This document shows positions 52,687-63,277 of a DNA stretch of 64,000 bases, one piece after another; position 1 is the stretch's first letter, and each line of letters starts with the position of its first letter. The translations under genes were made by a program, and so were the position numbers. Origin of the DNA: Microbacterium sp. SORGH_AS_0888 (GTDB lineage: Bacteria; Actinomycetota; Actinomycetes; Actinomycetales; Microbacteriaceae). The DNA lies in contig NZ_JAUTAZ010000001.1 of assembly GCF_030818905.1 (NCBI RefSeq), positions 372,001 to 436,000 of the forward strand. The letters are read 5' to 3'. The notes under the pieces are model-generated. The model was not told where the DNA came from. It did no database searches and saw only the letters and a list, made by a program, of their open reading frames with translations.

Positions 52687-52762
52687 GCACCTCTAGCTCA
52701 ATCGGCAGAGCAACTGACTCTTAATCAGTGGGTTCTGGGTTCGAGTCCCAGGGGGTGCACCA
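52687..52762 (+). tRNA. tRNA-Lys (CUU), used as integration site
   Basis: Cloverleaf with anticodon CTT in ACTGA-CTCTTAA-TCAGT, acceptor GCACCTC with GGGGTGC, and an encoded CCA (52760-52762). The 3' part from 52715 is duplicated at 63232-63277, so an element has integrated here and regenerated the gene. Confidence 0.95.
52715..52760 (+). repeat. Attachment site attL
   Basis: 46 bp covering the anticodon arm to the acceptor end of tRNA-Lys, identical to 63232-63277. Identity ends after GTGCAC, where this copy continues CACC and the other TACC. Confidence 0.93.
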
Positions 52763-52766
52763 CCCT

Positions 52767-52810
52767 AGAAACGCCCGGTCAGATGAGTATTCGTCTGGCT
52801 GGGTGTTTCT
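52767..52810. terminator. Terminator inside the element, next to attL
   Basis: An 18-bp stem (52767-52784 with 52793-52810, four G-T pairs) and an 8-nt loop. It can terminate tRNA-Lys from the left and, on the other strand, the integrase transcript. Confidence 0.75.
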
Positions 52811-52825
52811 GCTTTCTCGGTGCTC

Positions 52826-54070
52826 TCATGCCCCTGCGGGCACAGTTGCGGGCACACCTGTGCGCGCAGAGGGCGGGAGGAGGGCCAGGCCGCCCATCAC
52901 CGCGGTGCGGGCACGGTCGCCCACGAGGTGCGCGTACAGGTCGCGCGTGATCTGCGAGTTGGAGTGACCCATAACCTTGGACACCACGGTCAGGTCCTCC
53001 CCGGACGCCAGCATGAGCGAGGCGAACAGGTGCCGCAGATCGTGCAGGCGCTGAGGCCGCAGCCCTGCCTGCTTCACCAGCGGGCCGAGCACTCGCGACG
53101 GGTATTCGGGGAAGCAGTCCGAGCCATCGGCCATCGTGAACACGCGGTCACCGGTCACCTCGATGCCTGCCGCCACCGCTGCGTCGCGCTCCTGCGCCTG
53201 GCGTAGCTGCCACGCGAGGAGAGCGCCCACGGCGCGGTCGGTCAGCGGCACGGTGCGGTCCTGGCCCGCGTCGGTCTTGACCGTCTGTTCCAGCACCTTG
53301 TCGCCGACGCGCACGAGCTGCTGCCGAACCACGAGCTGCGGAGCGTCGCCACCCAGTCGCACGTCGCGCCACCGCAGGCCGACCAGCTCACCGCGGCGCA
53401 TGCCGGTCATCACCGCCAGCTCGAACAGAGCGCCCAGCCGGTGCTGTGCTGCGGTGTCCAGGAATCGCCCCGCCTCCTCCAGCGTCCAGGGCTCCACGCG
53501 CCTCGTGGTGACCTTGGGGAGCTTCACCGAGGCCGCGGGGTTCGTCTCGATGAGATCGAGCTGCACGGCGGCAGCCAGACCGCTGCGGAGAGTCGCATGC
53601 GCTCGGCGGATGGCCACCGATCCGCGCCCCGCCTCGGCCATGTGATCGACCCACTGCGCGACGTGCGCGCGCCGGATCGTGTCCAGCTTCATCGCGCCCA
53701 GTTCGGGCACCACGTAGTCGTCGGCGTAGCGGCGGTACTCCCGCAGCGTGGTCGCTTTCAGCTCCTCGGTGCGCTCGGCTCGTGCCAGCCAAGTGGTCAT
53801 GTGCTCGGCGAGCGTGGGCACCTCGAACCGCAGCACACCGCGCCGCAGCTTGCGCACCACCTCGTCGCGGGCGGCCTCGGCCTCGGCCTTGGTCGCAAAC
53901 CCACTGCGCTTCACCATGCGCCGCTTGCCCGTCGCCGGGTCGCTGCCCGCGCTCACGCGGAACTCCCAGACGCCGTGGCGCGAGCCGCCCAGCTTGGTGC
54001 AGCGGGAGCCCAGCGCCTTGCCCTCGTCGTCGCGGCAGTAGCAGCGGCGGCCTATCCCGTCACGCGCCAT
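52826..54070 (-). CDS. Tyrosine integrase
   Basis: A 414-residue site-specific recombinase. An N-terminal Cys/His-containing AP2-like arm-binding region (RRCYCRDDEGKALGSRC) is followed by a SAM-like core-binding domain. The catalytic domain has Arg in GMRRGELVGLRW, the His-x-x-Arg-type segment LHDLRHLFASLML, and the nucleophile Tyr in QITRDLYAHL. I place the start at ATG 54070, because AGGAGG lies 8 nt upstream; a GTG at 54079 is too close to it. It lies beside attL, as usual. Confidence 0.93.
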   Translation of the reverse strand: MARDGIGRRCYCRDDEGKALGSRCTKLGGSRHGVWEFRVSAGSDPATGKRRMVKRSGFATKAEAEAARDEVVRKLRRGVLRFEVPTLAEHMTTWLARAERTEELKATTLREYRRYADDYVVPELGAMKLDTIRRAHVAQWVDHMAEAGRGSVAIRRAHATLRSGLAAAVQLDLIETNPAASVKLPKVTTRRVEPWTLEEAGRFLDTAAQHRLGALFELAVMTGMRRGELVGLRWRDVRLGGDAPQLVVRQQLVRVGDKVLEQTVKTDAGQDRTVPLTDRAVGALLAWQLRQAQERDAAVAAGIEVTGDRVFTMADGSDCFPEYPSRVLGPLVKQAGLRPQRLHDLRHLFASLMLASGEDLTVVSKVMGHSNSQITRDLYAHLVGDRARTAVMGGLALLPPSARTGVPATVPAGA

Positions 54071-54138
54071 CGCCGTCACCTCCTCTTGTGGTCGTGTTCT
54101 CGTGCATTGCGTGCTCCTCTCTCGGTTGGTTTCCGGGT

Positions 54139-54651
54139 TTACTTGCGGTCGGTCGTGCGCTCGGGTGTGCTGCCTTGGGACTGGCGCAGCGACTGAACGC
54201 GCAGACGCATCGCCCCGCTGTGCAGTTCGTCCAGGCTCTCGGTCAGGGCCTCTGCTCGGCTTACGGCGTCGGCGGCGAGCTGCGCGAGGTGGTCCACCCC
54301 GTCCGCGTCGTGGGGAAGTGGCTGCACCTCGTCCCGCGTCACGACCGTGCCACCCAGCACCTCGTCGCCCTTTCCTCGCTTGCCGCCGATCACCACGGCG
54401 TCGATGTCGTCGGGCACCAGCAGCAGTGCGCCGGGCAGCACGCCAAGCTCTACCGCCAGCGCGACGATCTCGGCGGCCGTGAACTCGCGTCGGCCGTTCT
54501 CGGCCGCCGACATCGTGGCTGACGACCAGGCGGCAACTCCCAGGCGGTCGGCGACTCTCGCGCCCAGCTCGACTTGAGACAGACCCTCCCGTGCAGAGCG
54601 CAGTCGGCGGACGTTTCGCCCGACCACCTCCTGTATCAGCGTTGCACTCAT
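54139..54651 (-). CDS. XRE-family repressor of the element
   Basis: A 170-residue protein. NVRRLRSAREGLSQVELGARVADRLG followed by TMSAAENGRREFTAAEIVALA is an HTH_3 domain; the C-terminal part is helical, with no LexA-like protease motif. AGGTGAG precedes the ATG at 54651. It is divergent from the AlpA-like genes and probably keeps the element silent. Confidence 0.82.
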   Translation of the reverse strand: MSATLIQEVVGRNVRRLRSAREGLSQVELGARVADRLGVAAWSSATMSAAENGRREFTAAEIVALAVELGVLPGALLLVPDDIDAVVIGGKRGKGDEVLGGTVVTRDEVQPLPHDADGVDHLAQLAADAVSRAEALTESLDELHSGAMRLRVQSLRQSQGSTPERTTDRK

Positions 54652-54669
54652 CTCACCTCCAGCAATATG

Positions 54670-54713
54670 TGTGTAGACACAGCTTGACACAGATGCATGA
54701 CCCGTGCCAGCAT
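54670..54713. promoter_or_regulatory. Divergent control region of the element
   Basis: TGTGTAGACACA (54670-54681) is a dyad with a central AG, and the half-site GACACAG occurs again in overlapping form downstream. TTGACA (54684-54689) and CAGCAT (54708-54713), 18 nt apart, form a plausible promoter for the rightward genes. The layout suits a repressor operator. Confidence 0.55.
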
Positions 54714-54819
54714 TGATCTCGCCGCAAGATGCCAGTGCAGGGACGGGAGCCCTACTGGTGAGACGCCGGGCGCGCTCGTGGCTTCGTTGATTCATTTCCG
54801 AAGCTGAGAGGACTCCCGC

Positions 54820-55047
54820 ATGGGCACCACAGATGCCACTCCTGCGGCCAAGCGCCCACTGGCGCTCTCCGAGATCGCGGGGCGCGCCACCATCAGCGTG
54901 GAGGAGGCGGGCCGCGTGTTCGGCCTTTCCCGCCCCGCCGCGTACGCCGCTGTCCATCGGGGCGAGATTCCGGTGCGCCGGTTCGGTCGCCGCATGGTCG
55001 TGCCCGTCCCGGCGTTGCTGACCCTCCTGGAAGCGGGCGAGCAGTGA
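54820..55047 (+). CDS. Small HTH protein, AlpA/excisionase-like (1)
   Basis: A 75-residue winged-helix protein: ISVEEAGRVFGLSRPAAYAAVHRGEIPVRRFGRRMVVPVPALLTLL is an HTH_17 fold. Such proteins act as excisionases or as AlpA-type activators in satellites. It overlaps the next gene by GTGA. Confidence 0.8.
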   Translation: MGTTDATPAAKRPLALSEIAGRATISVEEAGRVFGLSRPAAYAAVHRGEIPVRRFGRRMVVPVPALLTLLEAGEQ

Positions 55048-55301
55048 CCACCGCGGCACCCAATCCGCAGCTCTCGCTCTCTGTGGAGGAGACGGCGACC
55101 CTGCTGGGGGCTGGGCTGCGTCAGACCTATGAGGCGGTCCGCAGGGGTGACATCCCCGCCGTGAAGATCGGCGCGCGCTGGTACGTCAAGGCCGCCGCGC
55201 TCTACGCGATGTTCGGCACTGACGAGGCTGCGCTGCGCCCGCAGAGTGCCCGCAGCGCCGCAGAACCGCATGATTCCGGGCCTATCGAGCCCACCGTCTG
55301 A
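55044..55301 (+). CDS. Small HTH protein, AlpA/excisionase-like (2)
   Basis: An 85-residue HTH_17 protein: LSVEETATLLGAGLRQTYEAVRRGDIPAVKIGARWYVKAAAL. It is similar in design to the preceding one, so one may be the excisionase and the other an activator. The gap 55302-55411 holds no gene. Confidence 0.8.
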   Translation: MTTAAPNPQLSLSVEETATLLGAGLRQTYEAVRRGDIPAVKIGARWYVKAAALYAMFGTDEAALRPQSARSAAEPHDSGPIEPTV

Positions 55302-55411
55302 CCACCGATCAGATACCGACTACCCAGTGCACGCGCCATCGACCACCACCACGAGGAGCACCAACGGTGAACGAGACGCGAGCCAACACGAGCGCGGAGA
55401 GGAGGGCTGAC

Positions 55412-56185
55412 ATGCATGGGATCGAGGTGGACGGCGCACGCCCCGCCGTCGCGGCAGTCACGTCGCTCCCGCGCGCTTACGGCCTGAACACCGCCGACCG
55501 GCTCGTGCTCTTGGCCCTGGCCTGTGACTCGTTCGACGGCGAGACGAGCGCGCCAGGCTACGACGCTCTGGCCGAGTGGACCGGGATGCTGCGCAGCTCG
55601 GTGGCCGAAGTGCTCCGACGCCTCGCCCACCCCGTCGATGGTGTGCGGCCCGCCCTCATCGAGCGAGCTGCGACCAAGCGCGGCCGTGACCGGACCACCT
55701 GGAGGCTGCTGCTGCAACCGTCCGGTGACGCCGACCTGTTGGTAACTGTGGATGAACCGTCCGGCGATACCGACTGGTTCGAGCTGCAACCGTCCGGCGA
55801 ACCGTCCGGCGAACCGTCCGGTGACGCCGGACCACTCCCTTTCCCTAACCCTGGAGGGGGTAATCCTCCAGAGGAATCAGCCATAGAGCGCGAGCGCGCG
55901 ACGACAGATCAGCAGCCGCAGCATCGTCACGAGCCGAACGCGCGCCGGGCGCTCCAGACGATCATCGGCGAGCGTCGTCTGCCGTTCGGCGTCGAGGAGC
56001 TGCTGGCTGCTTCCTACGCTCTCGGCGGCGGTGACCCGTGGACCGGCTACAAGCTCGTGAGCGAGGCCACCGCCCGCTCGCTCGACAGCGTGGACCACCC
56101 CCGCGCCGTCGTCGCCAAGCGCCTGAGCGACGCCGGGCTGACCGACGCCCCGCTGCTGGCTCGTCTGCGACGGAGGGCGGCATGA
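55412..56185 (+). CDS. Replication-type protein with N-terminal winged helix
   Basis: A 257-residue protein. ATG 55412 is preferred over GTG 55367 because AGAGGAGG lies just before it. Residues about 20-85 form a winged helix (LNTADRLVLLALACDSFDG, MLRSSVAEVLRRLAHP) like primosomal/replication initiators of phages and plasmids. The centre has repeated PSG(D/E) units encoded by iteron-like DNA, then a Pro/Gly linker and a C-terminal helical domain (EELLAASYALGGGDPW). No ATPase or primase motif is visible. The replication role is inferred from position and fold. Confidence 0.6.
   Translation: MHGIEVDGARPAVAAVTSLPRAYGLNTADRLVLLALACDSFDGETSAPGYDALAEWTGMLRSSVAEVLRRLAHPVDGVRPALIERAATKRGRDRTTWRLLLQPSGDADLLVTVDEPSGDTDWFELQPSGEPSGEPSGDAGPLPFPNPGGGNPPEESAIERERATTDQQPQHRHEPNARRALQTIIGERRLPFGVEELLAASYALGGGDPWTGYKLVSEATARSLDSVDHPRAVVAKRLSDAGLTDAPLLARLRRRAA
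55716..55824 (+). repeat. Five iteron-like repeats inside the replication-type gene
   Basis: AACCGTCCGG-Y-GA (13 bp) occurs at 55716, 55755, 55788, 55800 and 55812; the last three are in tandem. A hairpin CTGGAGG/CCTCCAG (55851-55871) follows. They encode PSG(D/E) units but could also be an origin. Confidence 0.65.
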
Positions 56186-56388
56186 GCGCCCTGGACTGCC
56201 GCCCCGGCCGCGCGCATCGGTTCGACTCGCCGAGCGGGTACTGCCGCTGGGGGTGCGGCGTGAGGGACGACGGGCGCGTGGTGTCGCGAGCTGGCGACGT
56301 GATCTATCCCGGGCCACTGGAGCGTCCGCAGCAGCAGCCCGCCCTGGAGGGCATGTCCGAGTACGTCGAGAGGATCGCAGACCTATGA
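56182..56388 (+). CDS. Small Cys-containing protein
   Basis: A 68-residue protein. Cys6, His12, Cys21 and Cys25 (DCRPGRAHRFD and GYCRWGCGVRDDGR) could hold a zinc ion. ATGA overlap with the previous gene. The family is not recognised; such Cys knots are common in actinophage early regions. Confidence 0.6.
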   Translation: MSALDCRPGRAHRFDSPSGYCRWGCGVRDDGRVVSRAGDVIYPGPLERPQQQPALEGMSEYVERIADL

Positions 56389-56492
56389 CCATCGCCGAGG
56401 CCGAGGACCACCTGGACCAGGCCACCGACCTGCGAGCGGCGTTCGTCGCTGCCGCCGATCTCATCGACACGACCCTGGAGGACCAGCGATGA
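56385..56492 (+). CDS. Very small acidic protein
   Basis: A 35-residue ORF (MTIAEAEDHLDQATDL to DTTLEDQR), predicted to be a single amphipathic helix. It overlaps both neighbours by 4 nt, which supports translation. Confidence 0.5.
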   Translation: MTIAEAEDHLDQATDLRAAFVAAADLIDTTLEDQR

Positions 56493-56770
56493 CCACCGAG
56501 CCGAATCAGTGGGACGCCGCCGTGTTCGAGCTGCTGTGGCGCTCGAACATCGAGACGCTGCCCCGCTTGATCCGCGAGCCTGGACTGCCAGTCCGTGCCC
56601 TGCACTCGATCCCCGGCAAGCACTGGGCGGACGGTCGAGCGCGCGTCGTGCTCGGCGTCGAGACGCCACTGCCCGAGGGGGACGTGCCGGACCTCGTGGC
56701 GATGCTCGCGACGATGGACACGGCAACTGCCACGGGTGAGCCGCCCGCGCTCGCCGGGGGTGCCTCGTGA
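56489..56770 (+). CDS. Hypothetical protein of the element
   Basis: A 93-residue protein (NQWDAAVFELLWRSNIETLPRLIREPGLPVRAL). Overlaps of 4 nt on both sides place it in the early operon. The family is not recognised. Confidence 0.55.
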   Translation: MTTEPNQWDAAVFELLWRSNIETLPRLIREPGLPVRALHSIPGKHWADGRARVVLGVETPLPEGDVPDLVAMLATMDTATATGEPPALAGGAS

Positions 56771-57150
56771 TCGGCCTGACGACCAAGGGCGCGCGCGAGC
56801 TGCGCGAGCTGCACGACGCGCTGCGGACCAGCTCAGCAGCCTGCGACGGTGACGAACGGTTCATCGCCGACCACGACGAGCTGGAGCACGACGAGGCGAC
56901 CGCGCTACGCCGCATCTGCCTCGGCTGCGACCTGTTCGACCTGTGCCGCGCCTACGCCGTCAAGGCCCGGCCCACCGGGGGCGTGTGGGCCGGACGGCGC
57001 TATGGCGGTCGCCCCGCTCGCAAGCAATCGGCCACAGGCGGCGCTCCAGGGGGCCCAGGAGTTAACGAGGGCCCTCGGGCGGTGTCCGAACCCCTGCCGA
57101 CCATCGAGACGGCCGCAAACGGCCACACAGCGGAAAGGACCAGCGCATGA
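56767..57150 (+). CDS. WhiB-family iron-sulfur regulator
   Basis: A 127-residue protein with four cysteines at 26, 51, 54 and 60 (C-x24-C-x2-C-x5-C) that bind a 4Fe-4S cluster, followed by the family turn GGVWAGR and a basic tail. Phage-borne WhiB proteins such as that of mycobacteriophage TM4 interfere with host WhiB2 and block superinfection. GTG start overlapping the previous gene. Confidence 0.88.
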   Translation: MIGLTTKGARELRELHDALRTSSAACDGDERFIADHDELEHDEATALRRICLGCDLFDLCRAYAVKARPTGGVWAGRRYGGRPARKQSATGGAPGGPGVNEGPRAVSEPLPTIETAANGHTAERTSA

Positions 57151-57422
57151 CCATGCCGACCCGGGAGCAGATGTTCGCAGCTCTCGCACCCCAGACACCT
57201 GAGGACTACGCCGCTCACGAGCGCGAGCGGCAGGAGGTGGGCCGCCAGCACGCGGTCGGCCTGCGTCTCGCGCAGATCGTGGCGCTGGCGTCGCCCACTC
57301 GCATCGCGGCCATGGTGCACGCGCCGCACCTCGCTGAGGTGGACGCCACCGACCCGGCAGCCGCCGAGCACATCCGCAACGTGTGCCACCAGCGCCTCAT
57401 CGAGCTGAGCACCAGCGACTGA
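57147..57422 (+). CDS. Hypothetical helical protein, related to the next two
   Basis: A 91-residue protein: ERERQEVGRQHAVG and AQIVALASPTRIAAMV parallel REREKVAELLAAG and DIVSEASDVRVAALI in the next gene, followed by a shared TDPAxAxEH segment. Function unknown. Confidence 0.6.
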   Translation: MTMPTREQMFAALAPQTPEDYAAHERERQEVGRQHAVGLRLAQIVALASPTRIAAMVHAPHLAEVDATDPAAAEHIRNVCHQRLIELSTSD

Positions 57423-57494
57423 CCAAAGACCCCCGCGGCGCGCCGCATCGCGGGTAACCCCGGCCGACAGGCCACCAAGAGAACGGATCACACC

Positions 57495-58160
57495 ATGACC
57501 ACCACCACCGCGGCGAACCCCGCCGCCAGCGCATACCGCGCGTACCGCGAGGCCCTGGTGGCCGCGCCGACGTACACCGACCCGCGCCTGACCAGCGCGG
57601 CGAACGGCGAGGAGCGCGGCAAGCTCATCCGCACCGCCCGTGCCACGCTCGCCGCCGCCATCCCGGCCGTGCCCCAGCGAACGGTCACCCGCGCCGACGT
57701 GCTTGCCTCCCGCGCACCGCGGACGGCCGATGAGGTGGCCGTGCAGTCGCGAGAGCGCGAGAAGGTCGCCGAGCTGCTGGCCGCGGGCCGCCAGTTCGAG
57801 GACATCGTGAGCGAGGCCAGCGACGTGCGCGTGGCCGCCCTCATCGACAGGCTGGAGATCACCGCGGCGACCGACCCGGCCGAGGCCGCCGAGCACGAGG
57901 AGTTGCTGTTCGGGCGGCTCGTGGCTCTCGGCGCACAGGACGCGATCACCGCGGCGACCGAGGAGAGCGAGACGGCGGCGACCGCTGCCTGGCACGACGT
58001 GCTCACCGAGGCGCTGGAGTCCGGCGAGGTAAGCGTGGGCACCCGAACCGCGGTCTACCACGCCGACCCGGAGGGCTACGGCCAGGCGTTCGACGCGGGC
58101 GACACCCCGGTGGACTGGGCCACGGTCAACCGCATCGCACCGCGCGAGGTGACGGCATGA
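57495..58160 (+). CDS. Hypothetical helical protein of the element
   Basis: A 221-residue Ala/Glu-rich protein. The middle (about 80-145) repeats the domain of the preceding gene. The C-terminal part (YHADPEGYGQAFDAGDTPVDW) is unique. A gap of 72 nt without features precedes it. The end overlaps the next gene by 4 nt. Confidence 0.6.
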   Translation: MTTTTAANPAASAYRAYREALVAAPTYTDPRLTSAANGEERGKLIRTARATLAAAIPAVPQRTVTRADVLASRAPRTADEVAVQSREREKVAELLAAGRQFEDIVSEASDVRVAALIDRLEITAATDPAEAAEHEELLFGRLVALGAQDAITAATEESETAATAAWHDVLTEALESGEVSVGTRTAVYHADPEGYGQAFDAGDTPVDWATVNRIAPREVTA

Positions 58161-58462
58161 CCGCCGCCGAGGTGGACGCGCTGGTGACAGCGCTCCTGGC
58201 CAACCTCCCCGCCGTGACCCAGGAGGATCGCGACGATCTGACGAGGCGACTCGCCGACGCCGCGGGTCAGCCGCTCGCGAATCTGCTGGACACGGCCCCC
58301 GTGGCTCGTGTCGCGGCGCTCGCCGAGCTGTACCCCGCGGATGCCGCAGTGCGTCGCCGCCTCGCCCGTCGTCTCGCGGTGCTGCGGTTCCCCGCGGCCG
58401 TCTCGGTGGCTGACGCCATCGCCGAGCAGGAGCGCGACGCCGAACTGGACGCCCTCGCCTGA
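58157..58462 (+). CDS. Hypothetical protein of the element
   Basis: A 101-residue helical protein. TAPVARVAALAELYPADAAVRRRLARRL resembles the R(V/I)AA(L/M) segments of the two preceding proteins, so three related domains may be expressed together. Confidence 0.55.
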   Translation: MTAAEVDALVTALLANLPAVTQEDRDDLTRRLADAAGQPLANLLDTAPVARVAALAELYPADAAVRRRLARRLAVLRFPAAVSVADAIAEQERDAELDALA

Positions 58463-58483
58463 CCACCACGCAGTGCACGCGCA

Positions 58484-58517
58484 GAGCGCCCCGAGCCGAT
58501 GACCGGCCGGGGCGCTC
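58484..58517. terminator. Bidirectional hairpin between convergent genes
   Basis: A 10-bp stem GAGCGCCCCG (58484-58493) with CGGGGCGCTC (58508-58517) and a 14-nt loop, between the early operon and the minus-strand membrane gene. Confidence 0.7.
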
Positions 58518-58522
58518 GCTCG

Positions 58523-59005
58523 TCACCGCCCTCCGGCTTGTGCCCGCCATTCGTCCAGCTCGGGGTTCGGGCGGCGCACCATAGCCAGTGCTCGCCGACG
58601 ATCTGCCAGGTAGACCAGCAGCACGCCGCTGACCTCGGCGGAACGCTCCACCATTGGCTCGGCCTCCATCGGCAGCGTCTCGACCTTCCAGGCCACCCAG
58701 TCCGCCAGCGCATAGTCGCGCCGGGGCAGCGCGCCATAGAGCGCCGTCGATGCGCTCGCCACGTCCATGAACGTCCGCAAGCCCCGGCGTTGACCGCGCA
58801 GCAGCGAGAACGGCAGGCGGTCCAGCAGCGTCCGTAGCGCCCAGTCCGGCAGCTCGCGCAGCGCAGCGAGCACGAGGCCCACGGCGGTGGCGCGGCGCTC
58901 GGCACGATCACGAGCCAGCCGGATCAGCTCACCGGCCAGAAACGTCGCGGCCACGACCGCCCCGGTGATGCCCGCCGCGAGGATCGATGCCACTCCAGAG
59001 TCCAT
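58523..59005 (-). CDS. Minus-strand membrane protein, possible moron
   Basis: A 160-residue protein. One N-terminal helix (GVASILAAGITGAVVAATFLAGEL) precedes a cytoplasmic helical domain (RDRAERRATAVGLVLAALRELPDW). It is transcribed against its neighbours, as cargo or immunity genes often are. I use ATG 59005 because the helix begins there. Family not recognised. Confidence 0.6.
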   Translation of the reverse strand: MDSGVASILAAGITGAVVAATFLAGELIRLARDRAERRATAVGLVLAALRELPDWALRTLLDRLPFSLLRGQRRGLRTFMDVASASTALYGALPRRDYALADWVAWKVETLPMEAEPMVERSAEVSGVLLVYLADRRRALAMVRRPNPELDEWRAQAGGR

Positions 59006-59292
59006 GCCCCGACCGTATCGGCGTGTCCCGGCTGCCGCGGTGTGCCCGCGCCGTGCCCGCAGCGGTCGCGGCCCGCGAAATCCCGCGGCGCACGAGGCGG
59101 GCGGCTGATCCTCAATCAGATGCCCAGGGCGGCGGCCGGCCGCTTGGCGGTAGCCCGGAAACCACGCCAGCACTGGGATCGCGGCCCTTCCGCTGTCGGT
59201 GGTCGGGCGTAGGATCGCGGCACACGCATCGCACGGCGGGCTCCGCGCGAACCACGACCAACACCGCTGCCCGCCGTCGTGCGGGCCTCCTC

Positions 59293-61542
59293 GTGGAGGG
59301 CAGAGCCATCGCGCTCGACTTGGGAACGCTGACCGGGTATCTGGACCTGGACGACAAGCAGTACGACGACGTGCTGGGCAAGCTGCCCGGCAAGATCGAC
59401 GTGAGCGGCGCGGCGATGAAGCTGGCCGCTGGAGCTGCTGCGCTCGGCGTCGGGATGGCTCTGGCTGGAGGTATCTCCTCGGCCATCGAGCTGGACGACG
59501 CCAGCCACAAGATCACCGCCCAGCTCGGCCTCACCGAGCAGGAGTCGGCGCGCATCGGCGGCGTGGCGGGCAAGCTCTACGCCGACGCCTATGGCGAGTC
59601 GGTGGAGGAGGTGAACACCGCGGTTCAGAACGTCGTGTCCAGCATCGACGGGATGCGAGACGCCAGCGCCGGGGCCATCGAGGACATGACTGCCAAGGCG
59701 CTGAACTTCGGAACGGCGTTCGAGGTGGATACGGCCCGGTCCACCCAGGTGGTGGGGCAGCTCATCAAGGGCGGGCTGGTGGCGGACGCGAACGAGGGGT
59801 TCGACCTCCTGGCCGCCGCGATGCAACGCGTCCCGGCCGGGGTGCGCGAGGACATCCTGGACGCCGCCGACGAGTACGGCCCGTTCTTCCAGCAGCTCGG
59901 TATCTCGGGCGAGGAGGCGATGGCCAAGCTGGTCACCGCGGCCGATAAGGGCACTTTCGGCATCGACAAGACCGGCGACGCGGTGAAGGAATTCAGCATC
60001 CGGGCCACCGACATGTCGGCCGCGAGCAAGACCGCGTACGACGCGCTGGGGCTGTCCCAGGAGGACATGACCCGCAAGCTGCTGGCCGGTGGGGACGAGG
60101 CCGCGGGCGCTTTCGATCAGATTGTGTCGGGCCTCCGCGGCGTGCAGGACCCCGCCGCCCAGTCTCAGGCCGCGCTCGCCCTGTTCGGCACCCCGCTGGA
60201 GGACCTGGGCACGGGCGAGATTCCCCAGTTCCTCGCGGGCCTCCAGGAGACAACAGGCGCGCTCGGCGAGGTGAACGGCACGATGTCCAAGGTCGGCGAC
60301 ACCCTGAACGGATCGGCCAAGACCGGCTGGACCGACCTCACCCGCACCTGGGACTCGATCATCGGCACGGTGGGGGCCGGGCTGCTGCCGGTTCTCACGA
60401 CGCTGCTGGACTGGCTGAACGAGAACCCCGCCATCCTCAGCGCGGTGGCCATCGGCCTCGGCGTGCTCGCCGCCGCGTTCGTGGTCCTCACCGCGGCCCA
60501 GTGGGCCATGAACGTCGCGATGCTCGCCAGCCCGGTCACCTGGATCATCCTCGGCATCGTCGCGCTGATCGCCGCGGTGGTGCTCCTCATCGCCAACTGG
60601 GACGCCGTAGTTTCCTTCCTTACTGACGTGTGGAACGGCTTCATTTCCTGGTTCACGGGGGTGATGGACGGATTCATCGCCTGGTGGAACGGCATGTGGG
60701 AGGGGTTCGCGTCCTGGGTCACCGAGGTGTGGAACGGCTTCATCGGCTGGATCGTCGGCGTCTGGAACGGCTTCATCGCGCTGCTGGTCGCGGGCGGCGA
60801 CGCCATCGCAGCCTGGTGGAGCGGCCTGTGGTCCGGCATCGGCTCGTTCTTCACCGGCATTTGGGAGGGGATCGTGGCCTGGGCCGCCTCGGTCATCGTG
60901 AACTTCATCCGCGGCTGGCAGATCATCTGGGGCGGACTCACTTCGTTCTTCGCCGGGCTCTGGTCGGGCATCAGCGGCGGGATCACCGGGGCGTGGAATG
61001 GCATCCTCTCGTTCTTCACCGGCATCCCCGGCACGATCATGGGGTTTTTCGCAGGCATCGGCTCGTGGCTCTGGAACGCCGGACGTGACCTGATCTCTGG
61101 CCTGCTGAACGGCATCAAGTCGCTGGCCGGGACCATCGGGAACTTCTTCCTGGGCCTGCTGCCCGACTGGATCGTCGGGCCCTTCAAGGCGGCGCTGGGG
61201 ATCGCCTCCCCGTCCAAGGTGTTCCGCGGCTACGGGCGCAACATCGTGGAGGGTCTGGCGCTGGGACTCGGTGACGAGCAGAGCGAGCTGGACCGGCGCA
61301 TGGCGGGGCTCGTGGGCACTCAGGACTACTCGACACAGGGCGGCGTGGCTGCGGCACTCCTGGGCGGTCAGAGCGGCCCCCAGCCCATCCACGTCACCAA
61401 CTCCCTGGCCGGGGCCACCGTCGTGCTCGACCTCGGCGACGGCAAGACCGTCATGGCCCTGGTGCGCGAGGAGATCGTGGACGCTGGCGAGCAGCGGCGC
61501 GGCGAGGTAGTCGTGGGCGCTGGAGAGGTGGTGTTCTCGTGA
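59293..61542 (+). CDS. Phage tail tape-measure protein
   Basis: About 749 residues. The N-terminal LDLGTLTGYLDLDDKQYDDVLGKLPGK is typical of actinophage tape measures. A TP901-core domain covers about 60-330 (DDASHKITAQLGLTEQE). Then follow two hydrophobic helices (ILSAVAIGLGVLAAAFVVL, WIILGIVALIAAVVLLIANW), a long run of W/F-rich repeats (WNGFISWFTGV, WNGMWEGF and similar), and the C-terminal motif GIASPSKVFRGYGRNIVEGL. It sets tail length in siphophages. Start uncertain: GTG 59293 is in frame, but the best ribosome site (GGAGGG 59296-59301) points to an ATC at 59308. No other tail gene is present. Confidence 0.9.
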   Translation: MEGRAIALDLGTLTGYLDLDDKQYDDVLGKLPGKIDVSGAAMKLAAGAAALGVGMALAGGISSAIELDDASHKITAQLGLTEQESARIGGVAGKLYADAYGESVEEVNTAVQNVVSSIDGMRDASAGAIEDMTAKALNFGTAFEVDTARSTQVVGQLIKGGLVADANEGFDLLAAAMQRVPAGVREDILDAADEYGPFFQQLGISGEEAMAKLVTAADKGTFGIDKTGDAVKEFSIRATDMSAASKTAYDALGLSQEDMTRKLLAGGDEAAGAFDQIVSGLRGVQDPAAQSQAALALFGTPLEDLGTGEIPQFLAGLQETTGALGEVNGTMSKVGDTLNGSAKTGWTDLTRTWDSIIGTVGAGLLPVLTTLLDWLNENPAILSAVAIGLGVLAAAFVVLTAAQWAMNVAMLASPVTWIILGIVALIAAVVLLIANWDAVVSFLTDVWNGFISWFTGVMDGFIAWWNGMWEGFASWVTEVWNGFIGWIVGVWNGFIALLVAGGDAIAAWWSGLWSGIGSFFTGIWEGIVAWAASVIVNFIRGWQIIWGGLTSFFAGLWSGISGGITGAWNGILSFFTGIPGTIMGFFAGIGSWLWNAGRDLISGLLNGIKSLAGTIGNFFLGLLPDWIVGPFKAALGIASPSKVFRGYGRNIVEGLALGLGDEQSELDRRMAGLVGTQDYSTQGGVAAALLGGQSGPQPIHVTNSLAGATVVLDLGDGKTVMALVREEIVDAGEQRRGEVVVGAGEVVFS

Positions 61543-61628
61543 GCGCCTGGAACGCCATCGTGCAGCCGCTCCAGCGCCCGTGGAACGCGCTCGTGGGCGT
61601 CGTAGTGCGGTGGTGGCGACATGGCTGA
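61539..61628 (+). CDS. Tiny Trp-rich ORF after the tape measure
   Basis: A 29-codon ORF from a GTG overlapping the tape-measure stop (GTGA). It encodes SAWNAIVQPLQRPWNALVG and ends RWWRHG, overlapping the next gene by 8 nt. The tight spacing suggests it is translated, perhaps as a remnant of a distal-tail gene. Confidence 0.45.
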   Translation: MSAWNAIVQPLQRPWNALVGVVVRWWRHG

Positions 61629-62142
61629 GAAGGACGCGCCTACGGGTGGCCGAGCGCCGATAGACGAGGCGACGCGGGAGCGCATCGTGCAGCTCGCTCG
61701 CGAGGGCATGAGCCGCAACGGGATCGCCCGGGAGACAGGCGTGGGGGCCACGACCGTCTCGCGCATCTGCAAGGCCGAGGGCGTCACCTTCGACCGCACC
61801 CAGACCGCCCAGGCCACCGAGGCCCACCGGATGGATGTGAAAGCCGAGCGCGAGCGCCTGGCCGAGCGGCTGCTGATTGAGGCGAACACCGCCCTGGACC
61901 AGCTCCACGTACCCACCGTCGTCGTCGGCTGGTACCAGGGCGAGGCCACCGAGCACACGCTGGACCGGCCCACCTCGGGCGACGTGAAGAACTACATGCT
62001 GGCCGCCGCAATCGCGCTGGACAAGCACATCGCCATCCACCAGCTCGACGGCAACGAGCGCGACGCCGCAGCGGTGGACCTCTGGCTGGCTCACGTCATG
62101 GGCGGCGGCGACCCCAACGCCTACACCGTCGAGATTCCGTAG
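61621..62142 (+). CDS. HTH protein, possible small terminase
   Basis: A 173-residue protein. An N-terminal resolvase-type HTH (TRERIVQLAREGMSRNGIARETGVGATTVSRIC) is followed by a helical central region and a C-terminal helix (NYMLAAAIALDKHIAIHQLDG). HTH plus oligomerising helices is the design of small terminase subunits. Satellites often encode their own to redirect packaging. A plain regulator is the other option. Confidence 0.55.
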   Translation: MAEKDAPTGGRAPIDEATRERIVQLAREGMSRNGIARETGVGATTVSRICKAEGVTFDRTQTAQATEAHRMDVKAERERLAERLLIEANTALDQLHVPTVVVGWYQGEATEHTLDRPTSGDVKNYMLAAAIALDKHIAIHQLDGNERDAAAVDLWLAHVMGGGDPNAYTVEIP

Positions 62143-62144
62143 AA

Positions 62145-62194
62145 CGCCCGGGGGCACTCGGGCGGCGACCAAGCCAGACCGGCACCCCCGGGCG
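62145..62194 (+). terminator. Terminator after the HTH gene
   Basis: A 10-bp GC stem CGCCCGGGGG (62145-62154) with CCCCCGGGCG (62185-62194), starting two bases after the stop codon; the loop is 30 nt and no T-tract follows. Confidence 0.55.
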
Positions 62195-62260
62195 AGGGAC
62201 CAACACGCGGGAGCGAGCCTACGCCCGCCCAGCGACATCGGTGGCGGGCATCCCCGCCAG

Positions 62261-62566
62261 TCACTCGCGGGCGAACCCCGCCGTTCCGTGCGCCCGCTCA
62301 CCGCGCCGCTGCCGCCCGAGTGCCACCCACGCCTCGGCTCCCTCGATCTCGGCGACCAGAGCGGCGCACAGAGCGTGCGTGTGTTCGCCGTCGTAGAACC
62401 CCGACACCCGGCCCGCGACCTCGGCCAGGATGTCCACCCAGTCCCCGGCCACGGCGCGCAGCTCGGCGATGACCGGGGCTGGGTCCTGGGTGTACTGGTT
62501 GCGCGTGCAGATCGCGCTCAGGTGGACGTTCAGCGCCACCTCGGGGGTGAGTCCTCGCCGGGGCAT
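62261..62566 (-). CDS. Hypothetical protein of the element (minus strand)
   Basis: A 101-residue protein from ATG 62566 (MPRRGLTPEVALNVHLSAIC). It is mainly helical, with HTHALCAALVAEIEGAEAW. It is opposite in direction to its neighbours. Family not recognised. Confidence 0.5.
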   Translation of the reverse strand: MPRRGLTPEVALNVHLSAICTRNQYTQDPAPVIAELRAVAGDWVDILAEVAGRVSGFYDGEHTHALCAALVAEIEGAEAWVALGRQRRGERAHGTAGFARE

Positions 62567-62690
62567 GACCGCACAGTAGAGCCGACCGCCGACAGCTCGG
62601 CGAGCCTCAGCGGTCGCGCCGCTGATCTCGGCTGTACTGGTCACCTCGCCATAGGGGCGAGAGCACGACCGACGCCTGTAGGAGGCACCA

Positions 62691-63035
62691 ATGAGCACGA
62701 CCCTGAGCACCATCGCCCAACGTCTCGCCGACGAGATCAAGGCACAGGACTGGTCCGACGCCCACACCCGCCCGGATGGAGCGCGGCACGACCGGCAGGT
62801 GGACCGCAAGGCGACCGACACCCTGACGGCCGAGCAGACCGAGCTGGTGCGGCTGAACGTCGTGTGGGTGACCGGCCAGGCCCTCCTGGAGGATGATCCG
62901 CGGTTCGACATCCGCGCCTACGCCGAGGCGTGTGGCGTCTCTACGAGCTGGCTGCTGACCAAGCGCGGCGCACCGAACCGCGGCATCGAGTCGGGCCTAC
63001 GTCCGCGCCGCTCGCGCGTCGTCTGGGACGACTGA
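62691..63035 (+). CDS. Hypothetical protein, last gene of the element
   Basis: A 114-residue protein (IAQRLADEIKAQDWSDAHTRPDG), helical, with a C-terminal HTH-like stretch (IRAYAEACGVSTSWLLTKRGAPNRG) that could contact DNA. TAGGAGG lies 7 nt before the ATG. Confidence 0.6.
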   Translation: MSTTLSTIAQRLADEIKAQDWSDAHTRPDGARHDRQVDRKATDTLTAEQTELVRLNVVWVTGQALLEDDPRFDIRAYAEACGVSTSWLLTKRGAPNRGIESGLRPRRSRVVWDD

Positions 63036-63153
63036 GCCCCACCCCCTGGCCTGATGGTCCTGGCCCGGTCCATTCACTAAAACGCGCGGGCGCAGCGCGG
63101 GCACACCGCGGGCACGCGACGCAGGACAGAGCCGGATAGTGGGGGAGAAGGAC

Positions 63154-63202
63154 AGCGCCCGCTGCCACCATTCTCGTGCGGAGTAGGGCGGCAGCGGGCG
63201 CT
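63154..63202. terminator. Hairpin near attR
   Basis: A perfect 13-bp stem AGCGCCCGCTGCC (63154-63166) with GGCAGCGGGCGCT (63190-63202). CGGATAG-type repeats lie around it (near 63133, 63205 and 63214) and could be integrase arm sites. The region 63036-63231 has no gene. Confidence 0.6.
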
Positions 63203-63231
63203 ATCGGATAGGGCCGGATGGGGCAGTCCCG

Positions 63232-63277
63232 TGACTCTTAATCAGTGGGTTCTGGGTTCGAGTCCCAGGGGGTGCAC
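63232..63277 (+). repeat. Attachment site attR
   Basis: 46-bp exact copy of the tRNA-Lys 3' part at 52715-52760. It lacks the 5' half of the tRNA and so is not a gene. Confidence 0.93.

Follow-up and report, generated by a model that had tools for sequence, protein, structure and literature searches.

A putative tRNA-integrated phage satellite of Microbacterium that encodes its own tape-measure protein

Why would a small integrated element that lacks the genes for a complete phage particle carry a gene for the ruler of a phage tail? The question arises from a 64,000-nucleotide stretch of the genome of Microbacterium sp. SORGH_AS_0888 (the window; contig NZ_JAUTAZ010000001.1, positions 372,001 to 436,000), in which a 10.5-kb element (window positions 52715 to 63277) lies between two direct 46-bp copies at tRNA-Lys(ctt) and encodes a tape-measure protein (TMP). 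An earlier note, made from the letters of the window, had proposed a phage satellite whose TMP might alter the tail length or tail specificity of a helper phage. Our comparisons favor, with a probability of roughly 60%, a reading in which the element is an intact tRNA-integrated satellite of an incoming siphophage, its own terminase small subunit (TerS)-like protein would redirect packaging, and its own TMP would replace that of the helper.

Gene content of the element

The attachment-site (att) repeats described in the earlier note were confirmed, with the two cores (attL, 52715 to 52760, and attR, 63232 to 63277, both on the plus strand) identical at 46 of 46 bp and the left copy contained within the tRNA-Lys(ctt) gene that is the integration target (52687 to 52762, plus strand; ARAGORN). 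The TMP gene (59293 to 61542, plus strand) is a complete frame of 749 codons with no internal stop, also as reported before, and its product matched PF10145 (4.8e-19) and phrog_58 (5.4e-66). It is followed on the same strand, in tight spacing, by a 29-codon open reading frame (ORF) across the TMP stop (61539 to 61628, plus strand; coding status uncertain, no PHROG match) and by the gene for a 173-residue helix-turn-helix (HTH) protein (61621 to 62142, plus strand; phrog_5536, 2e-33).

PHROG scans at E values up to 1 covered the 18 predicted element genes and one gene downstream. We did not detect a capsid, portal, large terminase, tail tube, baseplate, or lysis family among the 18 element genes, apart from the labels of the TMP itself, which comprised tail families and phrog_971 ("endolysin") among the 25 listed of its 36 families. 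With 80 phage reference proteins as tblastn queries (E of 1e-4), only TMP queries matched in the window element. Across the four tyrosine-integrase elements that carry a TMP (the window element and L094, L095, and L096, described below), only TMP queries matched, plus TerS queries in three of the four. Many of the 80 proteins matched in the control prophages and phages L097, L099, L101, L004, and L005, L097 being a partly circular control that itself supplied some of the reference proteins. These results bear out the missing genes listed in the earlier note. Virion and lysis genes for a complete particle are absent, as expected of a satellite, and the capsid, portal, and large terminase genes that characterize capsid-forming phage-inducible chromosomal islands (cf-PICIs) were found by neither search. 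By these searches, the TMP gene is the sole recognizable virion structural gene of the element.

The 173-residue HTH protein, which the earlier note had overlooked together with the g11 gene and the wider family to which the element belongs, appears to be TerS-like from its homology and from the gene position of its phage homologs. Beyond a weak match to a "terminase small subunit" family (phrog_1482, 0.0012), it matched 34 phage records, and among the 25 listed the homolog lies at the record start in 15, at the end in 8, and internally in 2. In Theresita, Olihed, and TinyDot, it is gene 1, overlapping gene 2 (annotated terminase) and followed by portal and capsid genes. In the uncultured phages L211 and L212, about eight small frames separate the homolog from a downstream 449-residue frame taken as the large terminase subunit (TerL), which occupies the TerL position of Phonegingi and DelaGarza; for a third phage, L210, the extracted stretch stops before any TerL-type frame. 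An AlphaFold model (predicted local distance difference test [pLDDT] of 88.5) predicts an N-terminal HTH, two long helices, and a beta-hairpin, a fold compatible with TerS. The TerS-like genes of L094, L095, and L096 belong to a different family, phrog_645, labeled "Rnase E", and the L094 protein has matches in 10 phage records, 7 of which name the gene terminase small subunit. As observations on the two families, phrog_645 includes a phage gene-1 protein and has homologs annotated elsewhere as terminase small subunit, while phrog_5536 is a nameless family with the same phage gene-1 position. A TerS role is suggested for both.

PICIs are marked in part by an integrase, divergent regulators, a replication gene, TerS-based redirection of packaging, and the lack of lysis genes. 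The element has a candidate gene for packaging redirection, identified solely from its homology and from where its phage homologs lie, and it has the integrase and the divergent pair. A tyrosine integrase (52826 to 54079, minus strand; PF00589, 7.6e-20; phrog_1, 4.4e-71) precedes an XRE-like regulator (54139 to 54651, minus strand), which is divergent from the AlpA-like excisionase/regulator gene alpA1 (54820 to 55047, plus strand; HTH_17, 3.9e-7). A second AlpA-like regulator (55044 to 55301, plus strand; HTH_17, 1.1e-9; phrog_7506, 4.7e-6) follows. These integrase and AlpA-like assignments agree with the earlier note, as does that of a WhiB-like protein (56767 to 57150, plus strand; PF02467, 2.4e-7). 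Two others in that note are softened. The XRE repressor is an XRE-like regulator whose weak HTH_3 match (0.003) falls below the Pfam cutoff (phrog_8, 3e-5). The replication gene encodes a replication-initiator-like protein (rep; 55367 to 56185, plus strand) with a HTH_36 match (5e-4) also below cutoff, but the gene at the same position in L096 matches replication-initiation families at 8e-10.

Relatives in Microbacterium

Related elements recur in Microbacterium, with an integrase, AlpA, rep, a TerS-like gene, and g11 within 5 to 12 kb and exact repeats at tRNA genes. The integrase-to-HTH gene set that the earlier note had proposed to seek in other genomes has conserved relatives, of which g11 (57495 to 58160, plus strand; 90 homologs) is the hallmark. 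The g11 family has at least 90 members, the named ones from Microbacterium or Agromyces (among the 7,997 best candidates scored), and its profile matches 37 of 366 Microbacterium genomes. The upstream g10 (57147 to 57422, plus strand) is a short paralog with 39% identity to g11 over 88 residues. The g11 protein is modeled as all-helical (pLDDT of 93.9), and the model had no PDB match at an E of 0.001, so its identification by fold was dropped; the family exposes g11 as an unexplained satellite hallmark. Because neither g11 nor rep of the window had a match among 50,697 phage records (E of 0.01), the core does not look like a phage leftover. Among viral contigs, a g11 alignment found one locus, a copy of the L096 element, and the TerS-like and rep proteins found none; the element had no match in a plasmid collection.

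TMP searches gave matches in 49 of 398 family genomes and 71 of 366 genus genomes, many of them weak. Among the first 20 TMP neighborhoods, L097 to L102 read as prophages by gene order, confirmed for L099 and L101 by reference proteins. Three neighborhoods are small elements with an integrase, AlpA-like, TerS-like, and g11-like genes, and a TMP: L094 (12.4 kb, with a 43-bp exact repeat at tRNA-Val and an additional XRE regulator), L095 (8.9 kb, 47-bp exact repeat at tRNA-Gly), and L096 (10.5 kb, 51-bp exact repeat at tRNA-Ala). Exact end repeats of 43 to 51 bp were found in all four tyrosine-integrase elements tested (these three and L109). We took 28 further g11 neighborhoods (L159 to L186, three of them retakes), and 13 of the 14 tyrosine-integrase loci tested among further g11 loci had exact repeats of 33 to 68 bp at tRNA genes, with none for L183. 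The recurring core consists of integrase, AlpA, rep, HNH-like, TerS-like, and g11 genes, although not every part was found in each element, and by frame reading L159 and L162 hold little beyond it. The window element has its closest sister in L174, with identities of 78% for the integrase, 84% for XRE, 91% for AlpA1, 74% for g18, 45% for the TerS-like protein, and 51% for g11. To judge from these shared genes and ends, the window element is a self-standing satellite-type element of a lineage and no remnant.

Among genomes of the serine-integrase group described below, TMP and g11 share a contig, no more than about 10 kb apart, in G431, G533, G695, G521, G539, and G720, but are on separate contigs in G715. 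In all, g11 and TMP are linked in 10 of the 37 g11 genomes, including four tyrosine-integrase elements; this count is of homologs of six TMP queries that lie no farther than about 10 kb from g11, a procedure that divergent TMPs could escape. The lists of TMP and g11 homologs share 12 contigs of equal size (two from the L094 and L095 genomes), and those of TMP and TerS homologs share 5 besides the source genome, all of them unread contigs and candidates for linkage only. In the genus search, the rep-like gene had matches in 10 of 366 genomes, the source genome included. TerS profile A4 matched 193 of the 366, mostly through short HTH-only stretches, and we assigned family membership only to strong A4 matches (E below about 1e-20), among which the surroundings of the L174 match were examined.

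A second group with serine integrases (L103 to L107, G539, and G720, by frame reading) also carries TMPs, of 599 to 637 residues in the five measured, and several members encode a primase-like protein. No att repeat was found at the five serine-integrase loci tested, one of which gave a 14-bp match. Several of these elements (L103 to L107) adjoin Flp/Tad-type pilin genes by frame reading, apparently a fixed target. In L173 and L178, a large terminase gene (42 to 43% identity to the TerL of phage Appa) and a TerS-like gene (by reading or weak profile match) adjoin g11, a neighborhood that suggests that g11 belongs to a packaging module.

Phage counterparts and competing explanations

We compared the TMP and TerS-like proteins of the satellites with the 50,697 phage records. 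For L094, the best TMP match was Phonegingi (85.9%, whole length), which was also the best TerS match (60.0%). For L095, the top three TMPs were those of DelaGarza (74.5% over 91%, in two pieces), Lesiram (74.0%), and Gingerbug (58.6%), and the same three phages gave the top TerS matches (49.5, 49.5, and 47.4%), with near-equal bit scores of 96 to 97. In both cases that named phages make testable, TMP and TerS lead to the same phages. For the window element, none of the named phages accounts for both proteins. The uncultured 38- to 39-kb phages L003 to L005 combine TMPs of 50 to 55% identity to that of the window with a strong window-type TerS, which is absent from the putative Appa record L002. 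The pairing is weaker for the window element, as it involves uncultured phages only.

A tree of 56 TMPs, built by a quick method with SH-aLRT support only, placed the satellite TMPs that we read at four positions among phage TMPs. The L094 TMP pairs with that of Phonegingi (100), the L095 and L096 TMPs share a clade with those of Gingerbug and phage L007, the window TMP belongs to a clade near L003 to L005, and the serine group stands apart. TMPs with the tentative, unconfirmed label of g11-linked pair with Gingerbug (99), phage L004 (99), and phage L007 (100). L010, whose TMP match is 73% over about the first 300 residues, was kept despite a bad row (145 residues, end branch of 6.95) and its placement ignored; L006 and L011 were left out for want of a frame.

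The earlier note would have abandoned its idea for a TMP free of purifying selection, and estimates for related satellite TMPs point the other way. The ratio of nonsynonymous to synonymous substitution rates (dN/dS) was 0.24 for L095 against L096 over 715 codons and about 0.33 for L094 against Phonegingi (dN of 0.109, dS of 0.33), each a single pairwise estimate. The L094 TMP is a mosaic in which residues 150 to 350 stand out against Phonegingi. A hypervariable segment under arms-race selection was rejected there in favor of ordinary recombination, because other TMPs match that segment at 83%, and its dS is 0.74 compared with 0.15 to 0.38 elsewhere.

Satellite and phage TMPs are also alike in length, with 753 residues in both members of the best-matched pair and 716/744 and 749/755-831 in others. 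A change of tail length, one half of what the earlier note had proposed for the TMP, was dropped as the main idea since matched TMPs are equal or similar in length. The other half fares better, and replacement of the helper TMP or a change of specificity is likelier than a length change given the equal lengths of the best-matched pair.

The favored reading supposes the following course. Helper infection would trip the divergent XRE/AlpA switch, the integrase and AlpA would excise the element, and the rep protein would replicate it. The TerS-like protein would then steer the helper large terminase onto satellite DNA, with packaging probably headful from a pac site, since Appa, which is of the type suspected as helper, is listed as circularly permuted (and as siphoviral and lytic; PMC7302621). 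Some Staphylococcus aureus pathogenicity islands (SaPIs) redirect the helper motor through a satellite TerS (PMC10690885). The satellite TMP would replace that of the helper and be used with the chaperone, tube, terminator, and tip of the helper, which would explain its closeness to helper sequence, and the exchange of TMP and TerS as helper-specific modules would explain why both resemble one phage lineage. The likely benefit would be tails reserved for the satellite, or resistant on its behalf, with no length change required. A tail role for the TMP is the most economical reading of these sequence comparisons, and the satellite probably contributes a component of the tail that carries it. 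More tentatively, and with somewhat less than an even chance of being right, TMP and TerS may form a swappable two-part helper key throughout the family, in which TerS claims the packaging motor and TMP claims the tail assembly line, both come from the parasitized lineage, and satellite DNA travels in tails with a satellite ruler but no satellite chaperone. If so, TMP piracy arose repeatedly in satellites of Gram-positive siphophages, in tyrosine- and serine-integrase elements alike.

As for the helper, the earlier note had suggested looking for a coresident prophage with a related TMP, and none came to light. A resident helper is unlikely and was set aside, because neither a second TMP nor, with two Pfam models, a portal turned up in the source genome, whose sole large-terminase match sits in another small element. 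That second element (G000:C1, about 2890780 to 2899349; L209:2780-11349; large terminase phrog_2, 1.1e-18) contains, by frame reading, an integrase, XRE, AlpA-like and rep-like genes, and three identical tandem 66-residue ORFs. No capsid or portal gene was seen in it, and it is possibly another satellite type.

Several observations weigh against the favored reading. Portals of the Appa type could have escaped the two portal models. Neither the 80-protein set, which included four TAC (tail assembly chaperone) queries, nor the PHROG scans revealed a TAC or a hub gene, searches that a very divergent TAC would escape. In a single-piece alignment, the identity between the L095 and DelaGarza TMPs is no more than 59%. 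Appa-type TMPs, which come with another TerS type, are about as similar to the window TMP as are those of the uncultured phages (50 to 58%; 57.8% over 82%). The window TerS profile was strong in 3 (L003 to L005), weak in 4, and missing in 10 of 17 records, and it contains the L005 protein, although a single-sequence search found this same protein independently (46%, 4e-30). The 173-residue protein also matches generic DNA-binding families (CENP-B_N, 4e-8; a DNA invertase family, 3.9e-6), and assignment to TerS by fold was dropped because Foldseek gave no significant match, with SPP1-like and P22 TerS ranking sixth and seventh at an E of 0.17. Shared phage ends were also dropped, as no phage end (cos or pac) sequence was found in the satellites and matches stronger than an E of 0.007 were confined to the L094 TerS gene. 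A circular form of the element was dropped as well, since viral contigs, from which source-genome records may be left out, yielded no exact attP junction. Finally, the closest sister, L174, has no TMP and by frame reading has a ParA-like gene, and the 6.5-kb element that G691 carries at the same tRNA-Lys as the window element, which has a similar att core and the relic of an integrase, retains only a broken TMP fragment.

The absence of the TMP from L174 makes it an add-on module that is dispensable for the class. One may then ask if the TMP is passenger cargo, captured from helpers by recombination and of little or no function to the satellite. Its loss in L174, its decay in G691, the recombination between satellites and phages seen in the mosaic L094 TMP, and the 27 of 37 g11 genomes with no g11-linked TMP in the stretches searched are all consistent with cargo. 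We nonetheless consider this unlikely. Each of the four tyrosine-integrase elements with a TMP has it as a complete frame, a TMP occurs in two separate groups of elements, acquisition was from several phage lineages, TMP and TerS agree on the phages, and dN/dS is 0.24; neutral cargo would predict none of this.

The TMP might instead be a weapon of interference, a look-alike that would protect the host by poisoning the assembly of helper tails, with the helper TMP retained in the particles of the satellite. Such a protein could well be near but not identical to that of the best phage, as is seen for L094 (86%) and L095 (74.5% over 91%, or 59% in one piece) with their mosaic divergence, and tail assembly is a known defense target (PMC11364771; PMC12987554 for Rta). 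This explanation is improbable as well, for a fragment could serve as inhibitor, but the TMP is kept whole at full length with a dN/dS well under 1. Moreover, the precedent in phage-inducible chromosomal island-like elements (PLEs) is incorporation, with Rta a separate gene there (PMC12987554).

A defective prophage that kept integrase, TMP, and TerS, the deletion remnant that the earlier note had feared, is very improbable, since TMP and TerS are indeed phage derived but many elements share the core and exact att ends, the window g11 and rep are unmatched in phage records, and no full prophage with the int-xre-alpA-g11 core at tRNA-Lys was seen among the loci opened, which were not a genome-wide survey of the site.

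Known satellites and remaining features of the locus

The earlier note knew of no satellite that works through its own TMP, a statement that PMC12987554 overturns. PLEs of Vibrio cholerae put their own TMP into chimeric tails, as demonstrated for PLE11, and deletion of tmp from PLE1, PLE4, and PLE11 abolished 96, 99, and about 99.9% of transduction, respectively (PMC12987554). That paper presents PLEs, which act in a pathogen on a contractile-tail system, as the first known case of satellites manipulating the assembly of tails, and the legend to its Extended Data Fig. 10 notes putative tmp genes in PLE-like elements and cf-PICIs. Like the window element, a PLE is an integrated satellite that encodes its own TMP, and its helper, ICP1, is lytic (PMC12987554), as is suspected of the helper here. 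For PLEs, incorporation of the TMP (PLE11) and its need for efficient transduction (three PLEs) were demonstrated. PLEs encode the TAC chaperone and in some cases the hub, neither of which was detected in the window element, and the tmp-tac pairing reported to be conserved across PLE variants was not found in it by these searches. The PLE11 TMP is 20% identical to that of its helper, compared here with 86% (L094), 59 to 74.5% (L095), and about 57% (window) to the best named phage. The element further differs from PLEs in its suspected siphoviral tail, its actinobacterial host, and its phage-like TerS.

With PICIs and SaPIs, the window element has in common the integrase, divergent AlpA-like regulators, a candidate rep gene, a putative gene for TerS-type redirection, and the lack of lysis genes (in part PMC10690885), a likeness in gene content to which it adds the TMP, the g11 family, and a suspected lytic helper. 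A cf-PICI is likewise a satellite with some structural genes, in some cases a putative tmp (PMC12987554), but it encodes a capsid, a portal, and both terminase subunits (PMC10690885), of which the window element has only the TerS-like gene. MulchRoom and MiniFlayer of Streptomyces are likewise actinobacterial satellites, with named helpers, but they encode capsid and packaging genes, and MulchRoom is thought to use helper tails (PMC10690885). P4 also redirects helper morphogenesis (PMC10690885). Its Sid protein alters capsid size through a scaffold, whereas the window element would supply the tail ruler itself with no need for a length change. The term "tape measure" is missing from the main text of PMC10690885. 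In titles and abstracts of the open-access literature, we found no description of this Microbacterium satellite family; satellite TMPs as such are described in PMC12987554. What is new here is an actinobacterial variant of known satellite TMP piracy without a detectable chaperone or hub gene. If the favored reading is true, tail piracy is more widespread, evolves by exchangeable parts, and works in siphophages.

The remaining element genes gave few leads. Three small ORFs on the plus strand (56182 to 56388, 56385 to 56492, and 56489 to 56770) had nothing below 0.007 in PHROG, and g12 (58157 to 58462, plus strand) had no PHROG match. The g13 product (58523 to 59005, minus strand), whose N terminus is hydrophobic by eye, had no match in Pfam, PHROG, or PADLOC, nor did g17 (62261 to 62566, minus strand) in PHROG or PADLOC. 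HTH-like g18 (62691 to 63035, plus strand) matched phrog_2328 (0.0011).

Some satellites carry additional cargo, such as a type II restriction-modification set in L096 (6280 to 8827; PADLOC REase_II, 2.3e-103) and a candidate defense protein in L094 (13635 to 14126; PDC-M63A, 6.5e-20). A small conserved Cys/His protein beside or near the TMP occurs in both satellite groups (L094:11740-12084, L103:11300-11650, L104:7361-7720, L106:11818-12225, and L107:8093-8398), with 41 to 47% identity to the L094 copy and no match in the window element, and is a candidate partner or switch for tail takeover. A sigma-70 promoter scan detected no promoter. The TMP-TerS block is bracketed by an imperfect 29-nt inverted repeat (86%; 59190 to 59218 and 62213 to 62241), a candidate shared operator or promoter. 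The repeat TGCGGGCAC occurs six times in the window, compared with 1.5 expected, and its five copies in the element (52835, 52847, 52906, 55246, and 59053), three near attL and one ahead of the TMP gene, are possible integrase arm sites.

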